Shown here one piece after another: positions 35,201 through 53,938 of a stretch of 64,000 nt of DNA. Position numbers and translations under genes: made by a program. The notes under the pieces are model-generated. The model saw only the letters and a program-made list of their open reading frames with translations. It had not been told where the DNA came from and searched no databases. Numbering within the stretch: the stretch's first letter is position 1; each line of letters starts with the position of its first letter. Origin of the DNA: Tetmemena sp. SeJ-2015 (taxonomy: Eukaryota; Ciliophora; Spirotrichea; Sporadotrichida; Oxytrichidae); contig JAJKFJ010021722.1 in the NCBI GenBank assembly GCA_027382625.1, positions 1-64,000 on the forward strand, in the 5' to 3' direction.

Positions 35201-38200
35201 GATCAAAGCAAATAGAGGAGTAGAACACATATTTGGCTATATGCCTAATGAGCTTTTAGGATTCAAAATTAATAAAGTTATGCCCAGACTTTTTGCATAA
35301 GTGCATGACGAATTCATACAAAATTTCTTGCGAAAGGGTCACTCAAACTTCATAGATAAGAACTAATTCCTACTTATCGAGAACAAGATGCGTTTCATTC
35401 AAATGACTTTGGCTTACATTAAGCCTCTCGTAGATCTAAAGGTGGGCTTATTTTAATCATTATGTAAACTGATTTATTAAGGTCGGCTTAATGTTTATCT
35501 CCTTCTTTAAACTACCATTAAAAGTGCCTAACAATTCAGAAGGCAATTAGTACATAAAGTCTAAGGAAGCCCATTATATCCTATGTGATTCGAAGGGGTA
35601 GATATTTGGTATGAGCCACAATTGCATGAAAAATTTAGGAATCCCACCAACAATAATATCAAAGAGTAAATCTCTCTCGACTATGGTTGATGGAGGTACC
35701 ATGACTTAAATAGATTAATTTTCTCCTAATATCTTAGGACCCGAATACGAGTTCGATTTACCAAAGGGTATGAACTTTACCTTTTGATACGACTATCTTT
35801 AAATCTGATAAATATTTGGCTAAAGAGTTCCATGAGCTCACTGGCAGAATGAGAAAATACAATATCTTTGTCTCTATGAGAAAGCATGAGTATAGACTGT
35901 TCTCTAGAGCAATACTCATGAGATTTTACTCTTCACAATTGAAATTCTATCTTTCTAATTGAGTGAGGCTCCCATCACTATCCCAGTTGATAAAACAGAT
36001 GACCCTAGTTATTCTCAGTATACAGGTACGACAGTTTCATCAGCAAACTCAGATGAACTAAGAACTTCTAAATTCAAGGAATTCAAAACCTAAGTTCAGG
36101 AACTTAATGCACCTTCAAAAATTACCACTTTGAGAAGAATAACTGTGGGCTTTTTTCTTTTCTTGCTCGCAATATTTTCACTCAACTATGCGCTTTGTGC
36201 CAACTAAAACTAAAGTTACATAGATAGAATAGACGTATTAGATCTTCTCTTTGATTTTAATAAATTTAAGTCAAAGTTTTAGAAGATTTGACTGAAAAAC
36301 TTCCTACAACTGCAAGATATGTGAGAACTTGCGTGAACATAGCTAATAGTTTTGAAAATAATACAAACGAAGTGCTTAATGACAGATTTAGCTATTACAT
36401 GTCCGAAATCGCAGTTAATGCTCAAATATTCAATGATCTCCAGTAGCGCATTTACACAACTTACTAAAGTTCACTAAAACTTGATAGTGTTTATGTCATA
36501 ACCAGCAATGTCCAGAGTGATTTTACCATCAAGAATTAAGTTAAATACGAATTTATTCTTCTTTTAATTCGATATTATATAAAGAACACTTCATAATCTA
36601 TTTCTAGCGCATTGAATGTCTTTGCTGGCAAATCTCTTTAGTTCAGTTAAAGTGAAACTTATAATTTTGACTTATAATTCCAATCTATTTAGTTTAACTA
36701 AAGATAGCTGATCTGAAAGGAGTAGTTATCCCATACCTTTCCTTTGATAAATTTGTCATTTCCAATTTGATTTATTGATTTCAATAACTCTGTAGCTACT
36801 AAAGGACTCTCAGAACTTCAGCAGAACTTATACTTCCTAATAAAGAATGGGGATGAATCTATACTTAAGGGACTACTCTAACTAGGAGACAATTCTCAAG
36901 ATACTATGGACAACTAGTCTTACACTTTGATGGTAACCTCACTAGTAATAGGAATAGTTTCCATCTTTGTGAATTTCCTGATTGTCCCTTTCGTTTATCC
37001 TCTTTTGGTGCACTATGAGAGACTTGCTTACTACATTTTACACTCGATTAACAAGCTAACTCTCAAATTTGTTGATAATGAAATTAAGTGCTGTGCTTAG
37101 CTATTCAACTACATCGGCAAAAAGTAAGGCTCAAATCTCAATGATAAACCATCGGCTGCTATTATGAAGAAGCCAGATGCCAGAAAAGAAAACAAGCAAC
37201 TCATGAAGATTAACCCTAAAATACCAAAGCATGTTCTTGACTAAGAGAGGAAGAAAAAGAGAGGATTGAATCAAAGGATTTATTTAAATGATTATAATAT
37301 AAAGAGGCGCAAGAAGGAACAGATCTAGGATGAACTAGTTCGAAGAAGAGAAGATTATGATCGAAGGTCCTGAAGGAGATGAAAAGTCAAAGATTAGAGA
37401 GGAAGATGAGGGCTCTGGCTTGCTAGATGAAGAATTAGACGAGGATCAAAACACAAGAGGTGCAAGAAGCCAAGCCAGAAGTAATGGACAAAATCTTAAT
37501 TATGTCTTTAAAGAAATCTTAGTCATGGAAGGTAAAGGACCAATAGAAGCAGAGGTAGACGATCCTAGTCGTATGGCATGGGAACGATGGAGCCAAATAC
37601 TGCATCAGTAGCTTCATTAGACGAGTCAACAATCTAGACAAGCATAGATGTGAACTCATCGACTAACAAAAGCAGCGGTGATACATCGAGCGATGATGAT
37701 AACTCAAGTGAATAGGGAGAGGGAGATAGCTCTTCTCAGAGTAATTATACTCATTATACAAACGTTTCTCACTGGAAAGTCCTTAGATAGAATGGTTATT
37801 CAAATGCTGGAAATATTGGAGTTAAATCCAATGCTTCTTTCATTTATGATATGACTCATGCTAAATCCTCTGAGCTTCCAGCAGGAGATACTTATTAGGA
37901 GAGAGATAATCACGAGTAACTTTCAGAAGAGGAGAAAGAGTTTAAGAAAGCTATAAAGGAGAAATAGCAAAAGATCAAGACATATTTGAAGCAGAGAAAA
38001 TTAAAGAAGGTCATCTTCCTGATAATCCTGATTATCATCATATCGATATACCTTGGAGTGAATACCATGTACACAAGATTTGTGTTTAGCTACGAGGATC
38101 ATCTCTAATCAGACATAAACATAATTGACAATAGGATTCTCTGCTATCCACAGCTTTTAACTTTGCTCAAAGAGATGGTTTCTAGGAATCACACTGTTGA

Positions 38201-38984
38201 AGTTTGGGATGAGTTTGAATACAATCCATCGACTCAATCCCAGTTTCTAATAAAGAGAGCTTAGATTTTGAAATGCCTTGAAAGGGAGTAATAATTCACC
38301 GATATTTTATTGGGTAAGACTACTGTAAATGGCCAATCTGTTCTAAGTGGAAAATACTCAGAGATAGCTGATTCACTAGAAAAGAACTAGCTTTGTGAAA
38401 CTATGTACCTGAATCACAACTCCCCTAACACCACAAAGTACTAGCTATGTCTTAACTCCTATCATGGAATAAGTTAGTTAGGATTAGGAGAGCTGCTTAA
38501 TTGGATTTTAAGAGAAGGTGACAAGACTCTCATATAGTTTAACTACCCTTTTACCAATAGAACTTAACTGGTCAATCAATTATAATTTGCATTAATTGAT
38601 TTCCCAATAGTTTAAGTTTATAATTTATTGAATATCCTAAAGTACTCTTCACTTGAAGAAGTAGAGACCTTATAGGATGTATTTATACAAGAGACTCTAG
38701 AGTTCCAAAGATCTGAGATGATTTCTAACATAAGAACTTATGCCTCAAGTCTCTTCAAGATATTCAAACTTTAAATTGTAATGATATACTATCATTATTT
38801 ATAATTCGATGTGCTCTTTGCAGTTTTCGTAGCATTCTGCTCAGTGACAGTAGTATTTGGAGTAATGATTCTCATCCGCAGTTTGCGAAGTCTTATCATT
38901 AACATCTATCACATTGTTTTGCTAATCCCCTATGGAGAAAGAACTAAGAGGGAGCTTAATGAATTGCTTAAGATTGAATTATGA
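32213..38984 (+). CDS. Large multi-TM PAS-domain protein (TmcB-like protist family)
   Basis: Start MQKK at 32213. An intron with donor GTAAGT joins EQVSDYIAVCSYEMVKRLTL. Several N-terminal membrane segments follow (AKFYIYLLLILDFLLVIYML; FALGAIYVLVGVILIG; VLMIPSLIIFAEII). A soluble part leads to a PAS domain at about 35100-35450 (NYAMIIASGDIKDLGRMIKA, GVEHIFGYMPNELLGFKINK, VMPRLFAQVHDEFI). The C-terminal half has further membrane segments (VGFFLFLLAIFSLNYAL about 36150; LVIGIVSIFVNFLIVPFVYP about 36950; VIFLIILIIIISIYLGVN about 38020; VFVAFCSVTVVFGVMILI about 38830) separated by charged regions. It ends ERTKRELNELLKIEL, TGA 38984. This organisation fits TmcB-like PAS sensors, which are abundant in ciliates; the ligand is unknown. 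At least two IES interrupt it. Confidence 0.72.
33645..33685 (+). other. IES in PAS-TM gene, 4-bp pointer ATGT
   Basis: ATGT at 33645-33648 and 33682-33685. Removing 37 nt joins FSSIDFM to FKKKIPIKISYETK in frame, while the unexcised frame ends at TGA. Confidence 0.7.
33832..33964 (+). other. IES in PAS-TM gene, 15-bp pointer
   Basis: TATGTCAACAGCTCT occurs exactly at 33832-33846 and 33950-33964. Removing 118 nt joins SFYYHNYVNSS to YKALFVQLENS in frame. The insert contains TGA and ends in a TTTACTTTACTTTACTT tract. Confidence 0.88.
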
Positions 38985-40002
38985 GAACCATAAAAGCTAA
39001 AGATGAGTGTTAATGTGATTATATTATACATTTATCGTTTGATATTTGAAATTGTAAAAACTATATTAAGTATGTAGTTAATAACGTAATGGGAATTGAA
39101 AAATAATAATTAGAGCTATTAGGGAACTCACCCATTAGATATATAACTGTGAGCCTTATTACCAATAAGTGATTAATTAGCCAAAAAATAAATAAAGGGC
39201 ATTTTTAATTAATTACATCACATTAAAAATTTTTTAGTAATGGAGAATTTTCTCTCGTTTTCCCTTTTACGCCCATTTATTGTTTTCTATCTTAATAATT
39301 CCCGGGCCCCACCCCCCACCCTGGCAAACACAAAACCTAAAGAAAGCAAAGTAAGGATTTAAAAAATTTTTTTCCCAAAATTTTTTTTATTTACTCCAGT
39401 TTTTCAGAATAATTATTATCTTTATTTTTATTCTGGGGAACCCCATCTTAATTCTCCAGAAATATTTTGTTTTTTTTTTTTTCTTGATTTGATTCTAAAA
39501 TATATCTTAGAAAAAGGAAGATATTTATTTACCAAATTTTGTAGTTGTCTTGCACGTTTTGGGTGGGGGCGGGCTTGGGGAATTATTAAAATTAAAAAAG
39601 GGAGGGCCCACAGGGGAAAGGAGAAAAAAACTCCATATCTAATTTTTTTTAAATCTGAAAAATTATATATAGTTAATCTTATATTTAAATTTTTTTTACT
39701 AATCTTATTTCAAAAAAATTTTCTTATGTTATTGATTGGCTGAATACCCCCTAAGGGGGAATATTAAATTTTTTTTTAAACTTATTCTTAATAATCAAAA
39801 ATTATTATATTTCCAATTTCAAAAAACAACATAAAATTTTTAAAAAGATTTAAAATTTTTTTTACAATTTAAAAATTTAATTAAATATTTTAAAAAAGGG
39901 GCTTTTATTCCCTTTCCACCTTCTTTTAGGGACCCTTCAGAAAAAAATAATAGGATTATTTTATAATGCTTTAGACATAAAAGTAACTTGTGTCTTTAAT
40001 TC
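38985..40002. other. Non-coding stretch with anomalous homopolymer/GC-run sequence
   Basis: 39250-39960 mixes long T and A runs with G/C runs (for example GGGCCCCACCCCCCACCCTG at about 39304, GGGTGGGGGCGGGCTTGGGG at about 39560). It has no believable coding frame. The neighbours lack this texture, which otherwise appears only at 540-615. Low-quality or mis-assembled sequence is the simplest reading. Confidence 0.5.
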
Positions 40003-43000
40003 ATGACTCTTAATAGGAACATAAACGACCTTACTAATTACAATGAGGAGCTTTTTAATTAGACTAATGATTCGCAAAGGCTATAACTTATGCAAGATAT
40101 CGATCTTCTTATGAAACACCAGTTTGATGCTCAGCCTCCATTTGCCACCCACAAGCCCAACTAGCAATCACATAGGCTCTCTAAAAATGACGTTGTGATT
40201 TATAACTCGGGCCCTGAGTCCCCCACCGCACGTGCGGTTCCGGACCGCACGTGCGGTACCGGCACCGCACGTGCGTACCAGCACCGCACGTGAACCCGGG
40301 ACCGCACATACCATAATTTTTTTTTAAGAACCCTTCATAAATACTCATATAATAACGTTTACGTCTTATCAAGTCTATAACGTCTGAAAAAATTGTCATA
40401 ACAAGTGTTATATTTATTTTCAATAATATTGAATGATTCTGCATCTTGGAAATAAAATATTGAAAATCTTTATAAATTATTAAATATGGATCAATTAAAA
40501 ATTAAAGGAGAGCTTTAACATTTTGTCAAATTCATTTTAATTGACAACAAATAAAGAAAAATTATAAAAACTAATACAACTTATGAAAATAATAAAATAA
40601 AATTATTTGTTCTATAAATATTATTATAAATAATTAATTGATTTTAAATGAATTTGCTCAATTATTTTAAGAAGATAAGTAAAGAAAGGTAATGAGTTAA
40701 ATTAAAAATAAAATTTATTTCATAACACTGAAAACTTAATGGAACAGTACGCGTAGTGTTTAAGCAAAACAATCAAAGCTAAACAAATACTTACTGATTT
40801 CGGCTTTCTAGCAGATACGATTCCATGCGCAATTTATTTTTAAATTTACATTAATAGTTTATTAATAAATGATGACAAATAATTCAATGCTGTTTAAATA
40901 AAACGACACTGTTATTTCAAGAAAATCTCATTAAAAACTACTGTAAACAATTATCAATTATGGAAATCCTAAAATATATTTAACAACATAAGTATTTTTT
41001 TTCTTAAAGTAATTAATTTCGTTAGCAATATAGTTATGCGAAGGCTAGTGTACTGTGTCGAATACTATTAGGCACGGCTACAAAGATTTCCTAGCGTACG
41101 AGTTAAATTTATTAAATACATTTATTTAAGTGTGAGAATTATCAATGCCGGAGTAGACAATCAATTAAACACGGTCTTCGCATCTACTGCCCTAAGTCAT
41201 GGTCTATAGAAATTTTATGCGCAGTGATGATGGAGTACTTATTAATACAAGTTTTTTTAATATATAATTTTTATGAACATATCTTTAATATCGAACATTG
41301 AAAGCTACAAATAAATAACAATTCAAAAATAAATATACATTTTTGTATAATAAACACAAATTATTTGCATTCAAAGGAAAGTATTATTTAAATTATAATT
41401 ATTATCATATTTATATATGTAAAAGAATATTTATATATATATTTAGTTACATATATTTATACATATTTATGTTTAAATATAGATACTTTCCGAACGGATG
41501 CAACACTAGTGAAGTGCCTATACGTTTAAAAATTTATGCTATTGTAGAATAATATATTTTTATCATTGCCTAATTAGTTATACGCTCGTTTCAGATTAAA
41601 GACCAGTAATCGATAATAATGTATCATTATATTACTTAATTATATGTTAGGTTTAGGAAATCGGTTGGAAAAATTTATGGATTTCTAAGGAAGGCTATCG
41701 CAAAATGATATTACACTGAATAAGACTAGTATCAACTCCAAGGCAGATAATAATATATAATACATGTTTAGACGTATTATAATACTTTTTAAGAATACAG
41801 GTAGACGAGTCGATGTGTTAATATCAATTTTATTCTAACAATCTTTCATATTGTATTGTGAATAAAATTTTGAATATACAAGATTGATGAAATGTGTAAG
41901 TAATAGTAGGAATAGCATTTATTCGTTTTATATTTCTTTAAGACGAATGTTTTATAAGAATTATATTATTACTAAAATCATTGTAGTTTATGACATTTTC
42001 CAAATCAATATTGTTTAATGAATAACAAAAACAATAGATTTCCGTAAAATAAGAGATCAGATTTCTTATATAGAATATTATAGCAATTGAATGAATTTAC
42101 ATATATCTTAGGTAGCTATACTAATAACTAGATTCATAAAAATTGCATATATATGTGATAATCTTTATCACATATATATGCACATATATAATAAACTAAA
42201 ATTAGGATGTCCAGAAACATCTTTAGTATCTTACACAGTGTAAGAAAACTGTGATATTTAATGATAAAATGAAAAGCAACATGCAGATATACCTGTCTTC
42301 AAAGTATTATAATAATACTAATTAACATAACTTTTATATATCAGGAATTACATAAAAATGCTTATTTTAACTATATATATTATGTGGTCCCACGAAAGCA
42401 TAACCTATCATGTTATTCCTTTTTATGTTGAACCAACTAGGAGGCACGAGAGACAAGTGTGGATCTTTGGGATGATTGAGGAAGAAATATCTAATTTGTA
42501 TTTTATAAACTCATAGGTGCAAGATTATGAGGATAGGTAATAGGACGGCACAGACATTTACGAATCTTATACAGCAACACATAGCACCAGGGTCACATGT
42601 AGATCATGATGGTCACCTCTCCTACTTGGCCGTGCCGTGGGCAAATCTAAATCTGTCACATAGCCGGCACATTCATCATTCGTCAACGTTTTAATACGAA
42701 AATAAAAGTTTCAATTTATAATAGTTTTAATGCACATTTATTGATTTAAATATAAAAACATTAGTATAATTAAACCTTTGTAAATATCAATAGCCAATAT
42801 ATTTTAAAACGAAACTGCTATAAGTATTTGATAGTCTGCAACAGTAATTTTACATTTGATTGACGAGATATGTTATATTAATCCAGTAAGATAATTAAAT
42901 TGCTTAGAATTTATTATTTATAGACTACTAACATATTTTTTACATATAATTTAGTGTTTTGCAAATGGAAAGGTGAGTGTACATGAAAAGCTTGTAATTT

Positions 43001-46000
43001 TTTGTTATTAACACAAACACGTTTTATTGGAGTTGGTAATATTACTTTATGCAAGTATTTTGTTACTCATAAATACTTGCTTATATTTACCTTTTACTAT
43101 TTTCTTTCTTGTTCTATATATTTTATTTTATTACTAAACGGGTGAAAGAAGGACAATGGAACATTCAAATTTGATAGAAGGGTTGTGGAGCACCCTGTAA
43201 TACCATTGCAGACATATCTACAACGCATTTCCGAGTGATATTGAGCAAATAGAGTTGTTTCTATATGAGTCTCTCTGGCGTCGAGACTTGCGGAGGATAG
43301 AAACATTAGAAGAACGAACAGAGTTCATCTCGGCAATAATAAAAATTATATTCAAATTAATTTTAATTAATTAAAGGATAAGTACACGCGTAAATAATAT
43401 TTACACAGCAACTTACATGTACCTCCACTATAATTAGATCAGTTATTTCTTACGTAATACATAAAATTCAATAATATTAATTGATAAGTTGAGGGTACTC
43501 CAATTTCCATAGTGGAAAGTAATTTATGATTTCTAGGATAGCTCTGTAATCATAAGATTTGAGAATTTTTAGGTACCTTCGTAAAGATTAGTAAGTAACT
43601 CAACCTTTACATAATTCTAGAGAAAAGCCATAAAAATTCGTGACTTCTATGTCAAGATAATACTACATATTATATTATTAGGTGATTATGTATTTTTTAA
43701 ACTGCATCAAAAGGTGTAAACTATACTTTTGATTAAAAGTATTTCGGATTTTATTAAATTGTCAGCATTAATTATGAGATTATCTGTATTACAAGAACAT
43801 GCAATTATTCACACATTCAATACATACTTTATTAATTATTATTTTTATTAAGTTTGTAAACATACTGAGTCGCTTCTCGCATATAATAAATACTTAAATT
43901 AACATACAAGCTCTAATATATTACATGCAAAAACTTCATCTATCATAGTATACTTCTATTTTTACATTAAGTGTTGATTTTATATCATGTAGAAACATTT
44001 GCTTAATTATTTTTTATTAATAATAATCAAGATAAAAAGTATATGTATCGCCCAAATATCTTATGTTTATATAGAGACACGCATCCCGTAAATTATTGGC
44101 TTAGATATATTTTTACTTAGTACTACAATACTATATATGTTCTTTACTTTTTATATTTTATAACAATTCTTGTTACTTAATATTTAGACATTACTTAGTC
44201 ATTAACAAATGTCTTAATGCTTTTTTTAAAACACCTAATTGTGATGATTGGTTGTACATGGTTACTTATATCGCTGACACTACTAATGTTATATGTAAAA
44301 TACATGTACAAATCTTGAATTACAAGATCTTTATATTTTAAGAATTATCTAATTGTTACATTTGATGATCTTTAATAACTCATATTTTTTTGTACATCAT
44401 TATTAGATAAATATATATATCTTTTAACCAATATATAGTAAAAGATTCATTTTTTATTTAAAAAAAAGGTTTTTTTACTTTTTTTAAATTATAAATAACA
44501 CATAAAATTAATTACTATAAATCCGATTCGATATTTAAAAATATAATCAAGCTTATTAACGAAAACTGGATTCTAATAAAACAAAAAGGTGTATCTGGTC
44601 ATCATTCTTCTGCCAGTTTAATTGGAGAGCAGGTAAAATGACTTAATTTTGTATATTTGTTATTTCATAAACAGATTTAGAGGTCATTTAGTTAATTTTA
44701 TATCTATATTTTCTATACTTTTAACCAAACTAACATTACTATTTATTACTTAAGATTAGGCGTAATATAGTATTATAGATAAAAATTAAGTTAACTTTAC
44801 TTAAATTAAATATAACACTTGTTATGACAATTTTTTCAGACGTTATAGACTTGATAAGACGTAAACGTTATTATATGAGTATTTATGAAGGGTTCTTAAA
44901 AAAAAATTATCTTATGTATGTGCCGTCCGGTCACTTGCGGTCTCGTACCGCACGTGCTTGAGCCGTACCATTACCGCACGTGCGGCCGAACCGAACATCG
45001 TGCGGTGGGGGACTCAGGGCCCTATAACTCTAACAGATCTGTTGAATTTAATCCTCCATGGCTTTAAGGCTCAGCTCTAAATGGCTAAAATGTCCCTGGC
45101 TCTCTTAATTAATGTAAGTGATTCTCCTTTAAAATTCAAAATTTCTGCATCCATTTGACGATTCCTTTGAACTATAGCTTCTCTCTTCAATGACTCAAAG
45201 TTCGTTCCTAATGACTAAAATTTCCTGCCTACAATTACTCTTGGGAATGTTCCTGCAGAAGAAATGCATATCTTAGGGGAAAATTTTACACTTGGTGCTA
45301 CAAATAGAGACACTATGCTACCAAGTAACTCAGTCTAGCTGAGTCTAGATTAATTCAAAATGGGGTCTCTTAGCAACTAAGGACTAGAAGTATATTGATT
45401 AACTTTAAGTTAAAATATTTGTAACTAGAAATGATGGGACAATAGAATCTATCCAACACTTAATAGTTAAATCTAGCTGAAATGGGAGCAAACAACAGAC
45501 TTGCGCCGAACATCCTTGATTACAAAAACAGAAGGTTAATTTACGGTTTCATTTAATTGAGTAGCTTTCATCGGGAAACAGTACTCAAAACTTGATGCAG
45601 CTACAATAGGTACAAGAGCCGCTTATGATTTAGTCTCAACTGATTCAATAATATGAGCAAGTCATGCAGTTGATGCATCAAGAAATTTAGAGCCTTCTAT
45701 TGAAAAACAAGGACTTGGATCAACAACTCAAGATTTATGCTGACCACTAAAGGGAATCTTTGGGCTTTAGGGACTAGTCAGCTTTGATAATTTATTAAAT
45801 AAAAATATTGCTATCATAGTAAGACTTAAAATATTAATCTCTCTGCATTTAAGTTTATTACCATAAAAAATTTGACATTAAAAATGTTAAATTTATAAAA
45901 GCTCTGTTAGAGGTTGTAATGAGAGAGAAAGATGAGTTGATTGATACTCTTCGATTAAGAGAGCAAGTAATCATGTCTTTGAGAGTAGATAACGATGTAC

Positions 46001-46935
46001 TGAATCAGAACTTGGCAGATTTCTAGCACAATCTATCCTCTCAGCAACAATTTAAAAATCAAACAGAACAGCAACTGAAGCAAAGAAATGACCAGTTAAT
46101 CGAGAAAATTAGACAACTTGAGAAAGAGAACAGACAACTTGAGTAATCAAACTTTGAATCAGAGTAGTAAAACAGACAATTATAGCGAGACTTAAAGAAT
46201 CAAACCATCATCAACGATTAGATGAGACAGGAAACACAAGAGATTAACGCTAAGAGAGAGTAAGGGGATATGCTTCTGCAGGAGACGAAGAGCAAACTAT
46301 GCCAGAATATAATCCAGACAAGATAATTCCAAGCTACTGTTGATCAGTAGTCTTTGCAGATAACTAGCTTGAAGAATTTAAATGCCTAGAGGGAGAAGTT
46401 CTTAGAGCATGCGAACTACGAGAGTGAAAGTTTGAAAGAGTAGTTGAATGAGGCTGATAGCGTGAAGCTGGAATATTTTTCAACGATAGAGAAAAAGGAG
46501 AGAGAAATTTAGCATTTAAGATAGCTAGTGAGAAAATTTGCTGGATTGATATCAACCCATAAAGAGGAATTTGGAGGACTGATAGATGTAAACTATGATC
46601 AGCTTTTTAAGGATGTTTCTAACACAAATGTATCTTACTAGCCTCCCAAACTTCCCACAAGCCATTTGAATACGTTGAAATCCAGGCCATTTGATGTTTA
46701 AATACCTGCAGCCTAGAAGACCAGCCCTCATTAGTTTGATTCCGAAAATGTTGACTATTACGGAATGGTAGACTAGATAACTTAATATGTAAGAGACAAA
46801 GCATCTTACTAGTCTAATACCCAAAGCTATAACTCTGGCCATAATTCATTGAGAGCGAAGAGCTCAGGAAGATCAGAATCTAAAACCCATTATGTCATTT
46901 ACTATATTTTCAAACATAATTTTATCTTCCGTTGA
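40003..46935 (+). CDS. Coiled-coil protein, host gene of the Merlin-type insertion
   Basis: ATG 40003 begins MTLNRNINDLTNYNEELFNQ. The frame enters the Merlin element at its target site and continues exactly after it (KNDVVIYNS / NRSVEFNPPWLQ) once the element plus one 8-bp duplication is removed. A 64-nt intron (45114-45177, GTAAGT...TATAG) and two IES (45383-45430, 45536-45558) were checked by frame. The C-terminal half is a long Gln/Glu-rich coiled coil (REKDELIDTLRLREQVIMSL, QLIEKIRQLEKENRQLEQ, REKFLEHANYESESLKEQLN, STIEKKEREIQHLRQLVRKF). It then has a Pro/Ser/Tyr-rich tail ending at TGA 46935. It is probably a cytoskeletal or basal-body-type scaffold by composition only. Confidence 0.68.
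42145..42181. repeat. Perfect 17-bp hairpin inside the Merlin element
   Basis: GCATATATATGTGATAA and its exact reverse complement are separated by TCT. The hairpin lies upstream of the transposase blocks. Confidence 0.7.
42360..43330 (+). CDS. Merlin/IS1016-like DDE transposase, split into blocks
   Basis: Three blocks match the family order. Block 1 (about 42433-42497): RRHERQVWIFGMIEEEISNL. Block 2 (42517-42687): CKIMRIGNRTAQTFTNLIQQ, then HIAPGSHVDHDGHLSYLAV and NLNLSHSRHIHHSST, covering the NRTA.T, APG.., second-Asp and HS.H motifs. Block 3 (about 43152-43320): MEHSNLIEGLWSTLQ, with the catalytic Glu in the NxIEGLW signature, then FLYESLWRRDLRR. A 19-nt intron (42498-42516, GT..AG) joins blocks 1-2 in frame, and a 464-nt GT-AG gap (42688-43151) joins 2-3. 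TAA is read as glutamine in block 3. The first Asp block may be at about 41884 (KIDEMCK before a GTAAGT donor), but this is not secure. The N-terminus was not found, so activity is uncertain. Confidence 0.72.
45383..45430 (+). other. IES, 7-bp pointer ACTAGAA
   Basis: ACTAGAA at 45383-45389 and 45424-45430. Removing 41 nt joins LSNQGLE to MMGQQNLSNTQQ in frame. A GT-AG intron reading instead gives an immediate TGA. Confidence 0.82.
45536..45558 (+). other. 17-nt IES, 6-bp pointer TTAATT
   Basis: TTAATT at 45536-45541 and 45553-45558. Removing 17 nt joins DYKNRRLI to EQLSSGNSTQNLMQ in frame. This is the shortest candidate in the window. Confidence 0.75.
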
Positions 46936-46964
46936 TTGTTCAATTTATATTGAACAACCAACGG
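46929..46964. terminator. 16-bp stem-loop across the stop codon region
   Basis: CCGTTGATTGTTCAAT (46929-46944), loop TTAT, and ATTGAACAACCAACGG (46949-46964) pair with a single mismatch. It sits on the TGA of the coiled-coil gene and about 180 bp before the next start. A role in 3'-end formation, or an MDS/IES boundary, is conjecture. Confidence 0.4.
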
Positions 46965-47147
46965 TTAGTAAAAATAGTTTGGAAATATCTATATACAAAT
47001 GGAATGGATTTATTAAAATAATTGAGACAATTTTGAGTTTTGAATTTGAGAACATGAACTCCTCCTAGCAATTTTTAACTAGGGCTAACCAAAGTCCAAA
47101 TTTTGAAGAACTCGAACGTATCTCATAATTAATCTGTGAACCACATG

Positions 47148-50100
47148 AGTATGGAAGAGTCCCACTCGCGTTCCTACGCATCTTCTTCTAATAGAGCGAA
47201 TGCAGAATCTGATGGAGGCTATCTCAAATTTTAGCCGAATTCAACTCTCAATTCAGCTTCGAATACGACCTAGGCCCCAGCAACAATCAGCTGGCTAAGT
47301 GGCGGTGCCGCAAAGCAGCCTAATCAAGTCCAAACTTCAGCAGGGAGGGCTAAAGGTAAAAGTCCTGAAAGAAAGCCAAACATAGACAATTTGAAAAATA
47401 CTCTGAGCTCACTCATTGAAGATAAAAAGATTATCAATTTTTAAATGTCCCTTTAATTGAAGAAAAGGCAACTTTAGAAAGACAGTTGAGAAGTGGTAAC
47501 GCACCCAAGTCTCAAGAAGACTTAAGATTTGAGATAGATTTAGCTGCAAACAACATCAAGAGAGTTCAGGAGAAGATTCAGGCAGCTCAAAGTTCCAACC
47601 ATCTCTGAGGTAGATTTTAAGCTTTTTATTTCTTTTTTCAATTGATGTCAAATCTTTAAATTTTAACATTGGTAAATATAAAAACAACTTAAATATAATT
47701 TTTTTGTTGAGGCTTATCCTGATCACTACAAAATATATATCACTGAAGTTTTATAGAGCAAAGGTCAGAACAGCAAGATAGAGAGTAATTACAATTAATC
47801 TCTTTTTTTAGGGCGAAGTCATCATTTTTAATGGCAACATTAATATGGTTGCAGTATTAAAGTAAAACTAGTTGATCCAAGAGCTGAATCAAGTCGAAAA
47901 TATTTAGCTTTAATGATAAAGAGATTAAGTTAATTCGCAGTTGCAGTAACTTGATGACTTCGTTTCGACATAACAAGAGATGATTGTCAAAATGAAACAA
48001 AAGCATTTGGCATGAATCATTATGTCTTGTTGAAAGCAAGTAGTAAGAGCTACATCTCAAAGATCTTTCCAGCTATATTAAATATAAGTATTACATTGAT
48101 CTAATTAACACAGTTTTAGAGCTGAAGAAGAAAACATAAATCATTAGAGCCTATCAGGAAGTATGACTCTAGCAAATCATATTTTAGAATGTTGGATCTA
48201 AATTAGCATTATTTATTATAAAGTGTAAGCTTAAATGAAAGACGCAGATGAACGAACTTTGATTATAAACAGAGTTGAGGAAATATCAAGAGAATTCAAT
48301 TCTAGAATAGATGGCTCAAATTCATTATTCGTTTTATATAGAACTTGATTTGGAAATGTCACATTGCGAAGTAAAAGTACAAAGCGATGAAACTCAATCT
48401 ATAACTATAATAAGATGAACTAAATACTCAAACTCAAGAAGCAGATTTCTCATAATTTCATGTTGGAATAATTTCTCTTAAATGTTGCACTCTCCAATGA
48501 AGTCAGAGTATACCTCAAAGATTCAGAAGAAATATCAAAGCTGAAAGAAGCAGAGAGATAGTAAAAAGCAATCATAGATTAATAAATGTTAGGAGACGGA
48601 GAAGTAGTTCTTGGTTTGACTTAATATTTTTCATCTTTAAAAGATATTTTAAATTCAAATTAAAAGTAAGAATTATATACAAAATTTGAACTTTAAATGG
48701 AAAGGGACTCTTCAAGAATCACACTGCCCAGCCACATCGACTTCAAAGAGCAAAGGATTAGATTAGAGAAACTTTAAGAAGCCCTTGTTGAATCTATATA
48801 ATAAGTCACTACAAAAGAAAGTCGTACAAAATAGAGGTAACTTATCTATTAACAATAGAGTCCTCTTGTTTAACATTTTAAATAGAACTTTTAGCATCTG
48901 TCTGTGGCTGCTCTCTATAATTTTATGATCTAAAAGCAATTTAGTATATAAGTTATAAGAATGCGAATCAATATGCTAACTACTTCTAGACATCGAGGAG
49001 CAAATTATTAAAGGGTAAGTAGAGAGGACAAGATTAAGTAAATCAATCAACAGTATCCAACCACAGACGACGCGATTAGGCTTGTAATTTAAGTATCAAT
49101 TAAACTCTTAGTATAATTTAAAGTCATCAAGAAGTTAGAACAAGAGAATGAGCTCCAATCTAGGTTTATTAAGAAATTAAATGAGTAAGTCATGCTTTTG
49201 AAGACACTCTCAACTACTGGATAGAGTTTGGACTAGAGTCTTGTACCTGGTTCAAGGCTAAATCAAAAGCTCATTACTAGCTCTCAAACTCAGAGAAGTG
49301 GCTAAAACTTGTCCTTATATATAAATTAAAGTCGAAAGGGAGGTCAGCCTTCTCAGGTAGTAATACTCAGATTCAAAGAAGCCAAGTAAATCAAAATCAC
49401 CTGAAAGAGCTAGATAGGAAAATTATAATAAAAGAATAGCGCAAAACCCTCTATCTAAATCTATTGAGAGATAGCCAGAGCTCACAAGATCTCAATTTTT
49501 CTCTTTTATCTTAGCTTTCAGTGACACCAAGGCATAAATTCAAAAATGAGAGTTAGTTTTAGTTCACCTCATACGATCTTTCTGCATACCAACATCTCGA
49601 AAAAGATTAGCTGCTACTTGTTGTTCAAGATCTTTAGTCTCAAATTTAAAGCTCCCTTGCAGCTCAAGATGCTGCTACAGATCAGCAAAATTCAAAGCTA
49701 AGTAACTCATTTTCCTTTACCTAAACTGGTTAATCACGATCTGTGAGATCAAGAAGTTAACACCCTGGTGCACAGTCGAGTAGTTTAAATAGACTAGCTT
49801 AGTCTTAGAATGGTCCTAGCTACTATTAGCAAAACTTAAGAGGTTAGAGCAATAGCTCGATGCACACTCAACACAGGGCAGATATGAGGGGCTTGAATTT
49901 GCTGCATCAAGAGATTAAGGATTTAGAGAAGAGGCATTTATTCATCGTCAAGGATTTCAGTAAACTCAAGGAAGAGAGGGAAGTGCTCTTATAGGAAAGA
50001 GATTAAGACTATGCTCTTTGGGAAAAAATGATGAGTCATGTATTGTAAAAATGATGGACGATTATTCAAAGGTCTTGGATTAGCAAGATGCCTCAAGCTA

Positions 50101-53100
50101 AGTTTTGCAACTTAATGAGATGCTTGAAAGCAATTATTCCATATAACTCAGTTATCTATAAGAGTCAAAGATCTTGAGTTAAATGACAAAATGAGAGATA
50201 TAATTGAGTTGAGAAGACAAGTGCAGTCAATAGGAAACTAAGAGCCATTAATTAGAGAGCTGAGATAAGAACTAGACAGACTATAATAATTTGAGCAGTA
50301 GATGAATAGTACTTAGGGTCTAGCTTTTGATTATGGTATAAATTCACAAAGAGAGGTAAAGCCTAAAGTTAATTTCATTAAGTAATGGTTGTTTGTTTTA
50401 TTTTAAAGTTGCAACTTCAAACAAGAGTATTTAATGCGATGATTTTATAATAACTAAAAGTGCAGATTCGAAGTATATGGTGGAGAGGTATGAAAAATTG
50501 AAAGTACAGTATGACGAGTTAAAGGAGAAGGAGAGGAATTTGTCTATAAAATCATCCCAATATAACTACGGAATCTCTGATCTTAAATAATTATAGAGTT
50601 GAAGTAAGCTGTAATGGAAGTGTATTTGGGCAGATAGCAATCATTATGAAACTAGATGAGGAATAACGACTCAAGTGAGGATATAGATTATTACACAAGA
50701 GTTCTAAAGAACGCTATTCAAATCATCTACGAAAACTAAGCAAGCCACAATTATTCAGCTTAAATAACATAGATAATAACTGCTAAGGTATCATCTATTT
50801 TTGGCTCAAAATTAGACCAGAAAAATATAGAGGTCATCTCTTAACTTTAGAAGTCATTTAATGATGCAATCTCTACTATCTATCGATTAAGTAAGCAACT
50901 ACCTTATTAATTTTAAAACCTTAAATAGAGAGTAGTTATGACTTTTTGGAGGTAAAGTGTCACATTAAATAAGTTAAGATAGCTTATCTTTCTACACTCA
51001 ATTATGAAAAGATTTACAATAGCTCAGACCAAACTTAGCTGCTAGATGTCAATAAACAACAGATGAATTATAAAGCTTAGATTTCTCTTAATAATAAGGA
51101 AAATAGTTCATAACAGAACGAGCGTTAATTTATTATTGGTTATGTTTAAATTTTTGAATGAGCAAAGCAATTATAACTCTCTAGTTCAAAGGTTGCACTC
51201 TTTTAATATTGGGCATATGATTGAGTTTGCCTCATCTTCACCCTATAGAGAGTCGACTATGCCCTCCCAATAGAACTTCGATTTGAGAAATCAGAATTAA
51301 AGAGCACCTTTCCCCTCCTACTAAAATAGTTCCTCCTCAAAGTCAAATCAGCCTTCAGCTTTCCATCAAGTTAATTAGTCCTTCTCAAATCCAAAGAGTC
51401 CCTCTCATCCCACGGCTAACTAGCCCCAATCAGTGATAGACAAAAAGATCAACTACCTCAATTCAAAGCTCTAAAATGTGATCTATATATTAGAGAGAGA
51501 TAGACTGAGAAACTGTAGGATGAGATAAAAGAGAGTAAATTCTTGAACAGTCAAATGGAGTCTGAACTACAAAGGAAAAACGCTAAGATTGTGTCATTAG
51601 AGTCCTTAATAGAAGACATGAATAAAAAGATCGGAGAGCAGTAGAAGTATATTGATCTCCTAGAATAAGCAAATAAGGAGACTACACAATTAAATTTAAA
51701 ATATCTTTACAATAGTAGTTCTTGGTTGAAACTCAAAAATCATTGAGGGAGCATGATAACCTAATGAGGAGTCTAAATTTCAAAGAAAATGAGCTAAAGG
51801 AGTACATCCATAAAAGTCAATAGCTAGAGGAAAACTCAAAAGATACAGAGGTGCTATACATAAAATTTAACTAAAGTTTAATAGCATGAATTCCAAATTC
51901 ATTCTGTAATACAAAGAAACATACAAATTCTTAAGAGCTAATACGAAAGAGAAAAGCGGTTGGTGGATGAAAAGGTCAGACAATTGACAGAGCTGTAAAC
52001 AACATCAGTTAATGAGAAAACGCTCTTGAAAGAGAATTTAGAACTTAAGAATATGAACATGGAATTGAATAGAGTGATTAAAGAAGAGAGAGCAGTGACA
52101 GAGGAAATGAGAAACAAGCTTCTGAGTTAGATTTAGCTAATGACTCAAAAAGTAATAAACATTGAAAATGGTTGCGCCAAAGAAATTGTGCTGAAGCTAA
52201 AGACTATGAGGAATGAGATTATCTACAAGGTAAATCAGCATTAATTTGAAAAATAAAAGGTATATCTCATATAAATATTAGACAAGTCTCTTTATAAATA
52301 AATGATCAGTTGCTAAATGAAACTGTAGACTCAATTATCAACGACATCATGACAAAGGTTAATCAGTAAATCAAGCTAAGAGACAATCCAATTAACTTTT
52401 ATGCGGTTTTTCTTTATCTTCAGAAAGCTGTCAATGTGTTGCAAAGTGAAAAACAACAGTTATATGCCCAGACTCAGCAGTTGCAATTTTCAATTACTTA
52501 GTCGCAAACACTTAAGAAAGGCTCGCTGGCTGTGGCAGGCGGAATTATGCGTTCTCACGCTGATTATAATAGCTTTGCCCATCAGCCTATCTAGTCAGTT
52601 TCTCCAAAAAGGCTTTTCAATCAAAGAATACAGGGCATGCAATCTATGCATAATTTAGACCAAGCTATGCATAGCCAAGCCTTAGGGGGACCCAGTGTCT
52701 TCCTTAATAACCCGATGATCCTCTAATCATAAGGATCTGTAGGAAATTTCTAGGTTAATTAAACCCATAAGATAGGAGGAGCATAATAAGATTAGGAAGA
52801 GAATTTAATAGAGTATCTTCAAGCAGAAATTGCTGCTCTAAGGTAAAAGAAGGATTAAGTTGGTGCCTAGAATAAGCAACTGCAAGGGTAATTAAAGGAA
52901 ATGGAGAAAAAGCTTGAATAAGCTGATATCTTTTCTAGAAGAGATAACCTAGATAATTATCAAACGCTGTTTTCGCATGTGAGAGATATTCTTGCAGAGC
53001 ATAGATAAGAACGCTTGCTTGATGACATTATTAGAAGGCCTCTGAAAACAAAGTCCCACAAGGATACGAATGGAGGATAAAATACTCTTAACCACACCTC

Positions 53101-53938
53101 CACTTCTTGTGTAGTAAATATGTTGCCAGTTGAAAACAATGAGGGCACCTCCAATTCAACTTTCATCTACAATGAGAATAGCATGAAACTGCTAAGTGAT
53201 TTGGAATCTCTACTTCCTCTAGTCACCAAGAGTATTTACTTGCTACTAACTGAACGGGACAAACTCACAGACCAGTTAAGAGAATAAGCGAGAGACATAG
53301 AATTGCTTACTTTGCAAAGAGAATAAGATAGAGCACTCTTAGATTAAAAAGAGGACAGTGATAAGCAGTATGTGAGGAAGCTTGAGTCTGACTACAAAAA
53401 TGAGCTTGCTTATTTAAAAGCCGAGAAAGATCAAATCGTGCAAAAGAGCAAGGACTTTGCTAAAAACTTCTAACAATTACAGGCAGAAATTGCAGATAAG
53501 AAAGAAATCAATAAGCAACTGAAGTCAGAGAACAAATAGCTCAGAGACGATATCGCTATGTTAGAGGAGAAAACAAAGAGAGCGTATAGCGATAAATATG
53601 ATAAAGAGCTGACTCAGCAAATTCAAAATGTGAGGGAGGAGTCTTACTACAAGGGTAGAAGAGACTGTTCAGACGAGATGACCACTGAAAATCACAAACT
53701 TAGGGAACTAATTGAATCATTGAGAAAGGAGCTCTCAGAGAAATCCAAGAAGGTCATTGAACTTCAGTTTGAAGTTGAAGAGCTTAATAAGAACAAGAGA
53801 AAGTAAAGTTAAGAAGTGGAGGAGCTATACGTTAAACTGAATAGAGAGCGTGATGGCCAGAGAGAACTCTAATCCAAATTAGATTCTCTTTTGCAAGAAG
53901 TTAGCTATTTGAAGAACGTCTCAAGATAAATACAATGA
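47148..53938 (+). CDS. Long coiled-coil protein
   Basis: A candidate start is ATG 47148 (MSMEESHSRSYASSSNRANA). A low-complexity Ser/Gln/Pro region precedes LKNTLSSLI/EEKATLERQL, joined across the IES at 47415-47463. Very long stretches of heptad-like sequence follow, for example IQELNQVENIQ (about 47870), LHQEIKDLEKRHLFIVKDF (about 49910), RELIESLRKELSEKSKK (about 53710) and ELQFEVEELNKNKRK (53760). The end is at TGA 53938 (SYLKNVSRQIQ). Several frame shifts mark further IES or introns, so the model is approximate and more than one gene could be present. Composition suggests a structural scaffold of cilia, centrosome or cortex; no specific family is assigned. Confidence 0.55.
47415..47463 (+). 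other. IES, 8-bp pointer ATTGAAGA
   Basis: ATTGAAGA at 47415-47422 and 47456-47463. Removing 41 nt joins NTLSSLIE to EKATLERQLRSGN in frame. Confidence 0.8.

Follow-up and report, generated by a model that had tools for sequence, protein, structure and literature searches.

Merlin transposons have been described with terminal inverted repeats (TIRs) of 24-462 bp, 5'-GG termini and 8- or 9-bp target-site duplications (TSDs), and with DDE blocks 1 and 2 lying about 50-70 residues apart (PMC8101967). In the sections of that survey drawn on here, their proteins are said to lack Zn_Tnp_IS1595, unlike most IS1595 proteins, and Merlin-like tblastn matches are reported from 24 of 33 ciliate genomes, the described Stentor cases being without ends or duplications. 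Here, we analyse a Merlin-type element in a stretch of 64,000 nucleotides from the spirotrich ciliate Tetmemena sp. SeJ-2015 (contig JAJKFJ010021722.1, positions 1 to 64,000), hereafter the window. It corresponds to C2797:1-64000 in the genome searched, which comprises 146 Mb in 5,213 contigs. The element resembles the described Merlin transposons in its full-length DDE_Tnp_IS1595 domain, the spacing of its DDE triad, its 8-bp duplications, its 5'-GG termini and an end length within the reported range; it differs from them, as far as they are portrayed in that source, in a transposase split by inserts that resemble internal eliminated sequences (IESs) and possibly in a zinc-ribbon-like N-terminus (PMC8101967). 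We consider it quite likely that this Merlin (IS1595-type) transposon interrupts a coding exon on one member of a pair of collinear germline contigs (likely alleles), and that its transposase is split by eight likely IESs, so that it would be made only after host editing has joined nine pieces.

Among spirotrichs, the closest described proteins are the 11 IS1595-domain proteins of the Oxytricha macronucleus, which are expressed almost only during conjugation (PMC3558436). They share the domain with the window element and were proposed to act in genome rearrangement, but they are encoded on nanochromosomes without TIRs and are called domesticated in the portions of the paper available to us, whereas the gene described here is carried by a mobile element of the germline that has both ends and duplications. 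The TBE transposons (Tc1/mariner) of hypotrichs are likewise germline-limited, often near coding segments and equipped with a transposase under purifying selection; in contrast, they belong to another DDE family and are described with three open reading frames, with no IES interruption of the transposase reported in the accessed parts of the sources (PMC4724952, PMC9797194). In Blepharisma, DDE_Tnp_IS1595 (Merlin) domains appear in the comparison of germline and soma and miniature inverted-repeat transposable elements act as IESs, but the text consulted describes no Merlin element with ends and duplications, and the IESs there are mostly TA-bound (PMC9942856). In Oxytricha, injected RNA has been used to make IESs be retained (PMC8495736). 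No germline transposon with an IES-interrupted transposase gene was found described in the open-access literature, to the extent that these sources were available, which is no proof of absence in print. The original prediction, made by a model from the sequence alone, held that this DDE family is not known to have been described as a germline element of spirotrichs; this view was incomplete, given the Oxytricha genes (PMC3558436) and the ciliate matches (PMC8101967), as excerpted here.

The element and its transposase gene

The Merlin-type element spans positions 40209-45022 (4,814 bp) and carries the exact 8-bp duplication TATAACTC on both sides; it is confirmed as real. Its TIRs are about 240 bp long and start with GGGCCC (first letters GGGCCCTGAGTCCCCC). 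The outer 24 bp of the two ends are 100% complementary and the inner 141 bp 90% (40209-40446 versus 44777-45022), and CCGCACGTGCGG palindromes recur within both. The original prediction of an exact duplication and of palindrome-bearing inverted ends holds, although the latter had been estimated at about 200 bp. The boundaries are as follows.

40201..40208, no strand: left TSD TATAACTC; matches 45023-45030 exactly, one copy only in contig C1693
40209..45022, + strand: whole Merlin-type element, 4,814 bp, from the TIR pair and TSDs; absent from the collinear contig C1693
40209..40446, + strand: left TIR, beginning GGGCCCTGAGTCCCCCACCGCACGTGCGG; its end pattern occurs at 162 genome places versus 0 in the control
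44777..45022, - strand: right TIR; complementary to the left one over 24 bp at 100% and 141 bp at 90%
45023..45030, no strand: right TSD TATAACTC; adjoins the element and equals the left octamer

Between these ends lies one Merlin/IS1595 transposase gene in nine pieces, with eight AT-rich inserts between them. All of the following features are on the + strand.

40739..40833: transposase piece 1 (ATG at 40739; MEQYAQ..DTIPCAI)
40829..41024: IES-like insert 1, 196 bp, repeat GCAAT
41030..41103: transposase piece 2 (QLCEGQC..LAYE)
41101..41128: IES-like insert 2, 28 bp, repeat AGT
41132..41240: transposase piece 3 (CENYQCRSRQSIKHG..MMEY)
41236..41483: IES-like insert 3, 248 bp, repeat TACTT; site common to C2013, C3534 and C1757
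41489..41538: transposase piece 4 (FPNGCNTSEVPIRLKIY)
41535..41642: IES-like insert 4, 108 bp, repeat TATG; region common to C2013, C3534 and C1757
41647..41747: transposase piece 5 (VRFRKSVGKIYGFLRKAIAK..LQGR); one in-frame TGA at 41706-41708
41745..41791: IES-like insert 5, 47 bp, repeat AGA; site common to four relatives
41795..41817: transposase piece 6 (IQVDESM; first catalytic D)
41813..42381: IES-like insert 6, 569 bp, repeat ATGTG; site common to four relatives
42387..42487: transposase piece 7 (WSHESITYH..RQVWIFGMIEEE)
42485..42506: IES-like insert 7, 22 bp, repeat AAA; the weakest of the eight
42510..42688: transposase piece 8 (THRCKIM..PGSHVDHDGHLSY..RHIHHSST; second catalytic D)
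42685..43136: IES-like insert 8, 452 bp, repeat AACG; site common to four relatives
43141..43350: transposase piece 9 (GERRTMEHSNLIEGLW..; catalytic E); 3' end past about 43350 provisional

The eight inserts (1,670 bp) have a GC content of 19% versus 41% in the nine pieces (942 bp). Direct repeats of 3-5 bp flank every one of these inserts, which range from 22 to 569 bp, and seven of the eight are not a multiple of three. Removing each of the eight while keeping one direct repeat closes the reading frame. An inverted repeat lies within insert 6 (42144-42182), its 18-bp arms matching perfectly around a loop of 3 bp.

The joined pieces match PF12762 (DDE_Tnp_IS1595) over its full length (1-153 of 153) with 44.6 bits against a cut-off of 27, the TGA being read as X. 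In the joined frame the DDE triad consists of D147, D218 and E257, with spacings of 70 and 38 residues. The predicted assignment to a transposase of Merlin/IS1595 type is thereby supported. Two interior Merlin blocks had been noticed from the sequence and are present; what had escaped notice is that they are fragments of one transposase gene parted by at least eight IES-like inserts. Taken alone, the NRTAQT..APGSHVDHDG block scores 21.5 bits against PF12762 (E 2.6e-4), below the cut-off of 27, and the SNLIEGLW block has no Pfam match. NCBIfam NF033547 (IS1595), a model for bacterial and archaeal annotation and no defining mark of Merlin, gives 56.4 bits (E 3.7e-15), below its cut-off of 75. 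The N-terminus is cysteine-rich and zinc-ribbon-like (CEGQC..CENYQC), with no Pfam match to Zn_Tnp_IS1595. A protein-database search with the joined transposase returned nothing at E <= 0.001.

A search of the genome with the PF12762 profile gave 12 places, none within the window. Long uninterrupted IS1595-domain frames above the Pfam cut-off were observed at three loci, L001 (C2848:25728-26084), L002 (C2884) and L003 (C3004), and no ends of the GGGCCC family (up to 5 mismatches) were found within the 3.4 kb fetched for each. These three have the appearance of domesticated genes of the kind reported from Oxytricha.

The family across the genome

The left end has at least 87 matched pieces in the genome (40 of 91 candidates scored). 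A 29-bp degenerate end pattern, allowing up to 2 mismatches, occurs at 162 genome places, whereas the reversed control gave 0; this is in line with the predicted multi-copy family. Exact, copy-specific 8-bp duplications were found in 19 of the 22 two-ended copies scored. A first set of 11 such copies (ends with up to 5 mismatches) came from 20 fetched loci and the window, 10 of the fetched loci having one such end and being left unscored, and it contained 10 exact 8/8 TSDs. Eleven more pairs, chosen among 100 listed of the 162 pattern places, gave 9 (locus L058 being the left end on C3534). The original prediction had proposed such a search for further duplicated copies. Its statement that different flanking octamers in other copies would refute the transposon was incorrect: the octamers vary from copy to copy and match within copies, as transposon insertion predicts. 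One family end pair with no matching octamers (C607:2778-5834) may be a recombinant, a mis-assembly or two separate elements.

Three transposase-bearing copies, on C1757, C2013 and C3534, sit within complete end pairs, each with an exact 8/8 TSD, and C4005, C66 and C2750 have one family end each among the pattern places listed. The 20 fetched end loci comprise 11 of a type A (complete copies of 2.8-4.3 kb), eight of a type B (2.2-3.2 kb) and one (L047) left unassigned. This composition could mean that a different transposase, also producing 8-bp duplications, mobilises the GGGCCC-ended family and that a few copies carry the Merlin gene as a passenger, since types A and B, which make up 19 of the 20 loci, resemble the window copy in their ends only and none of the 20 contigs occurs among the 28 matches of the transposase search (see below). 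However, the Merlin gene lies within complete end pairs in three copies, and no other transposase domain was detected when ten frames were scanned against Pfam. Transposase-free copies with shared ends are common in cut-and-paste families, which also counts against a passenger. The terminal 5'-GG and the 8-bp duplications are Merlin traits in the part of the survey consulted (PMC8101967). We regard a passenger gene as very unlikely. With the Merlin transposase as the family's own enzyme, the gene-less copies (types A and B and a miniature) would move in trans.

Type A loci, among them L033, L036 and L041, carry a conserved frame, the longest examples being 618, 568 and 477 aa. It gave no Pfam match above the cut-off, and a protein-database search returned nothing at E <= 0.001. 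This frame is possibly a second gene of the family, perhaps interrupted too. A miniature copy of 447 bp with both ends lies at C1996:12103-12549 (L098, TSD TAGTTTAT). The element copies on C3715 and C2293 (L036 and L037) are identical over 2,956 bp and probably reflect either two haplotypes or a single locus whose contig is duplicated.

The inserts as likely internal eliminated sequences

The search with the pasted transposase blocks gave 28 matches, including close relatives on C1757, C2013, C3534, C4005, C2005, C66, C2890 and C2750 and more distant transposases on C2449 and C3266. Wherever a close relative has both halves, the break in the gene falls at one and the same residue. The distant Merlin gene on C2449 is uninterrupted across sites 5-8, and no uninterrupted copy of the close group was present among the matches. 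C2013 and C3534 have an extra insert with the repeat AATT that was not seen in the window or in C1757; inserts have therefore been gained or lost over time. Between these two copies, identity is 88.4% in the pieces and 77.4% in the inserts. Ratios of nonsynonymous to synonymous substitution (dN/dS), computed on 93 codons spanning pieces 8 and 9, were 0.059 (C2013/C3534), 0.098 (C1757/C2005) and 0.048 (C1757/C2890), and the transposase appears to be still under selection in these relatives.

Across 25 junctions in five copies, the mean repeat was 4.48 bp, compared to 2.20 bp in random placements given comparable search freedom (maximum 3.04 in 400 control sets). Twenty of the 25 inserts are not a multiple of three. 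Because the joins had first been found by eye, we fixed the excision length by homology, which is the fairer test. For sites 5-8 in five copies (n=20), the mean repeat was then 4.1 bp versus 2.26 bp at other in-frame lengths, with sites 5, 6 and 8 standing out over the five copies. The fixed length agrees with the uninterrupted C2449 at sites 5-7; at site 8 it follows family-internal agreement and is two residues longer than in C2449. For C3534, sites 3, 3b and 4 were joined by visual inspection. Since the relatives are cut at shared places and dN/dS is 0.05-0.10 in three pairs, the eight inserts are most likely IESs.

The shared positions could also be read as those of unusual introns removed from RNA, which would make this an ordinary intron-bearing Merlin transposon: insert positions are common to copies while lengths differ, as for introns, and interconversion of intron and IES at the same site is reported for spirotrichs in the passages available from PMC9797194. 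Yet GT-AG ends are impossible for all 25 inserts, including all eight of the window, wherever in the repeat the boundary is placed, whereas an intron of 64 bp with GT-AG ends is predicted close by in the host gene, and the flanking repeats exceed the controls. Spliceosomal introns were rejected on the GT-AG result, and we consider introns of any unusual kind unlikely.

A decayed pseudogene, whose fragments would be relics parted by random insertions and drift, was our first reading of the locus. The in-frame TGA of the window copy and the absence of all 20 end-fetched contigs from the transposase matches speak for it. In contrast, each of the eight breaks can be closed at a direct repeat with the frame kept, relatives are broken at the same sites, often with different repeats, the full Pfam domain is recovered from the joined pieces, and dN/dS is low in the three relative pairs. 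We rejected decay because the breaks close in frame at repeats in both the window and the relatives; it is a highly doubtful explanation of the fragments.

Several observations nevertheless weigh against our main reading, in addition to the discovery of the junctions by eye and the lack of overlap between the 20 end contigs and the 28 transposase matches. When the window copy is considered by itself, site 6 is the only one to surpass every alternative length (share of alternatives doing as well: site 5 0.38, site 6 0.00, site 7 0.59, site 8 0.17); the argument therefore draws on all relatives jointly. At site 7 the excess is slight, with repeats of 3, 2, 2, 3 and 5 bp, of which only that of C2890 beats most controls, and insert 7 thus rests mainly on frame and homology. 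The joined frame of the window copy keeps its TGA, and this copy, with its premature stop, is probably not autonomous today. Frameshifts occur in piece 5 of C3534 and, common to C2013 and C3534, in piece 7. Synonymous divergence (dS) between the window copy and C3534 or C2013 is infinite and reaches 2.8 with C1757 (ratio 0.117); owing to this saturation, selection on the window lineage cannot be read from these pairs. C2005 and C2890, both used for dN/dS, have no family end among 100 listed of the 162 pattern places, a list reaching into the places with 1 mismatch. With regard to the duplications, the C607 end pair shows none, C2470 matches at 7/8, and C1819 matches only after a one-base slip in a G run.

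The insertion site and the proposed mechanism

The gene that carries the element has the following features, all on the + strand.

40003..40208: host coding exon upstream of the element (MTLNRN..KNDVVIYNS), from sequence and comparison with a Stylonychia lemnae protein
45114..45177: predicted 64-bp GT-AG intron of the host gene, from sequence, the join being read by eye against the Stylonychia lemnae protein
45383..45423: host-gene IES, 41 bp, with the 7-bp pointer ACTAGAA, in both contigs; its removal restores the frame

The host gene has a single database match, a Stylonychia lemnae protein of 643 aa (47% identical, with 95% of the query covered). The conserved KNDVVIYN stops at the insertion site, and the Stylonychia protein runs on without an insert. 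Contig C1693 carries the joined flanks uninterrupted at 98% with a single TATAACTC. It is collinear with the window over 35506-39026 and 45023-47637 at 95% and over 39972-40208 at 97%; positions 52300-53900 match it at 98%, and that search gave just these two places genome-wide. Both the homologue and C1693 are continuous across the site, which agrees with the original prediction of an insertion in a ciliate coding exon. The germline origin of the sequence likewise stood up, the signs being the host IES with its ACTAGAA pointer, C4A4 telomere repeats and TAA/TAG read as Q. The telomere repeats, this codon reading and the Stylonychia match point to a spirotrich, which is probably hypotrich-like.

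The prediction had further proposed a frame-restoring excision. The host frame does reconnect across the element (MTLNRN..DVVIYNS to NRSVEFNPP), but this is expected of any insertion with a duplicated target and is no evidence of excision; what was found is a collinear empty contig, a likely allele, and no macronuclear excision product. C1693 would be the macronuclear, excised version, with no second germline allele, if the loss at this site of exactly the element and one duplication were taken by itself. Against this, the 41-bp host IES is still present in it, the 26.7-kb contig has no match to the C4A4 telomere pattern, and three aligned stretches diverge by 3-5%. A macronuclear C1693 is therefore very unlikely in our judgement. 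As the host IES is kept in both, both contigs are germline, and C1693 is likely, and most simply, the empty germline allele of the insertion locus.

From these data, the following course may be envisaged. Insertion by a Merlin transposase would leave an 8-bp repeat, which is pointer-sized for a hypotrich-like ciliate. As the macronucleus develops, excision at their own 3-5 bp repeats would take out the inner inserts and make the transposase readable, and the joined gene might then be transcribed briefly or kept as a somatic chromosome. The whole element would leave the host exon with the TATAACTC duplication acting as pointer, and movement in the germline would then occur in trans, carrying gene-less copies as well. 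Removal of the element from the macronucleus is plausible. That the family depends on programmed genome rearrangement, its gene kept silent in the germline by its scattered layout and activated solely in the developing somatic nucleus through inside-out nested excision, before the element is removed whole with its TSD as a ready-made pointer, is a proposal whose chances we judge to be evenly balanced.

IESs are usually seen as transposon remains. In the present case IES-like inserts interrupt the gene of a transposon itself, and this gene is apparently still selected in relatives; the parasite would thus have given the host editing machinery control over its own expression. With this element, TBE (Tc1/mariner) is also joined by a further type of germline transposase in spirotrichs, and the macronuclear IS1595-domain proteins of Oxytricha acquire a possible source in the germline. 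With an element-free counterpart in C1693, a pointer role of the 8-bp duplication is open to direct testing. The two contigs show a second structural difference upstream of the host gene, where 945 bp of the window (39027-39971) stand opposite about 155 unaligned bp in C1693.

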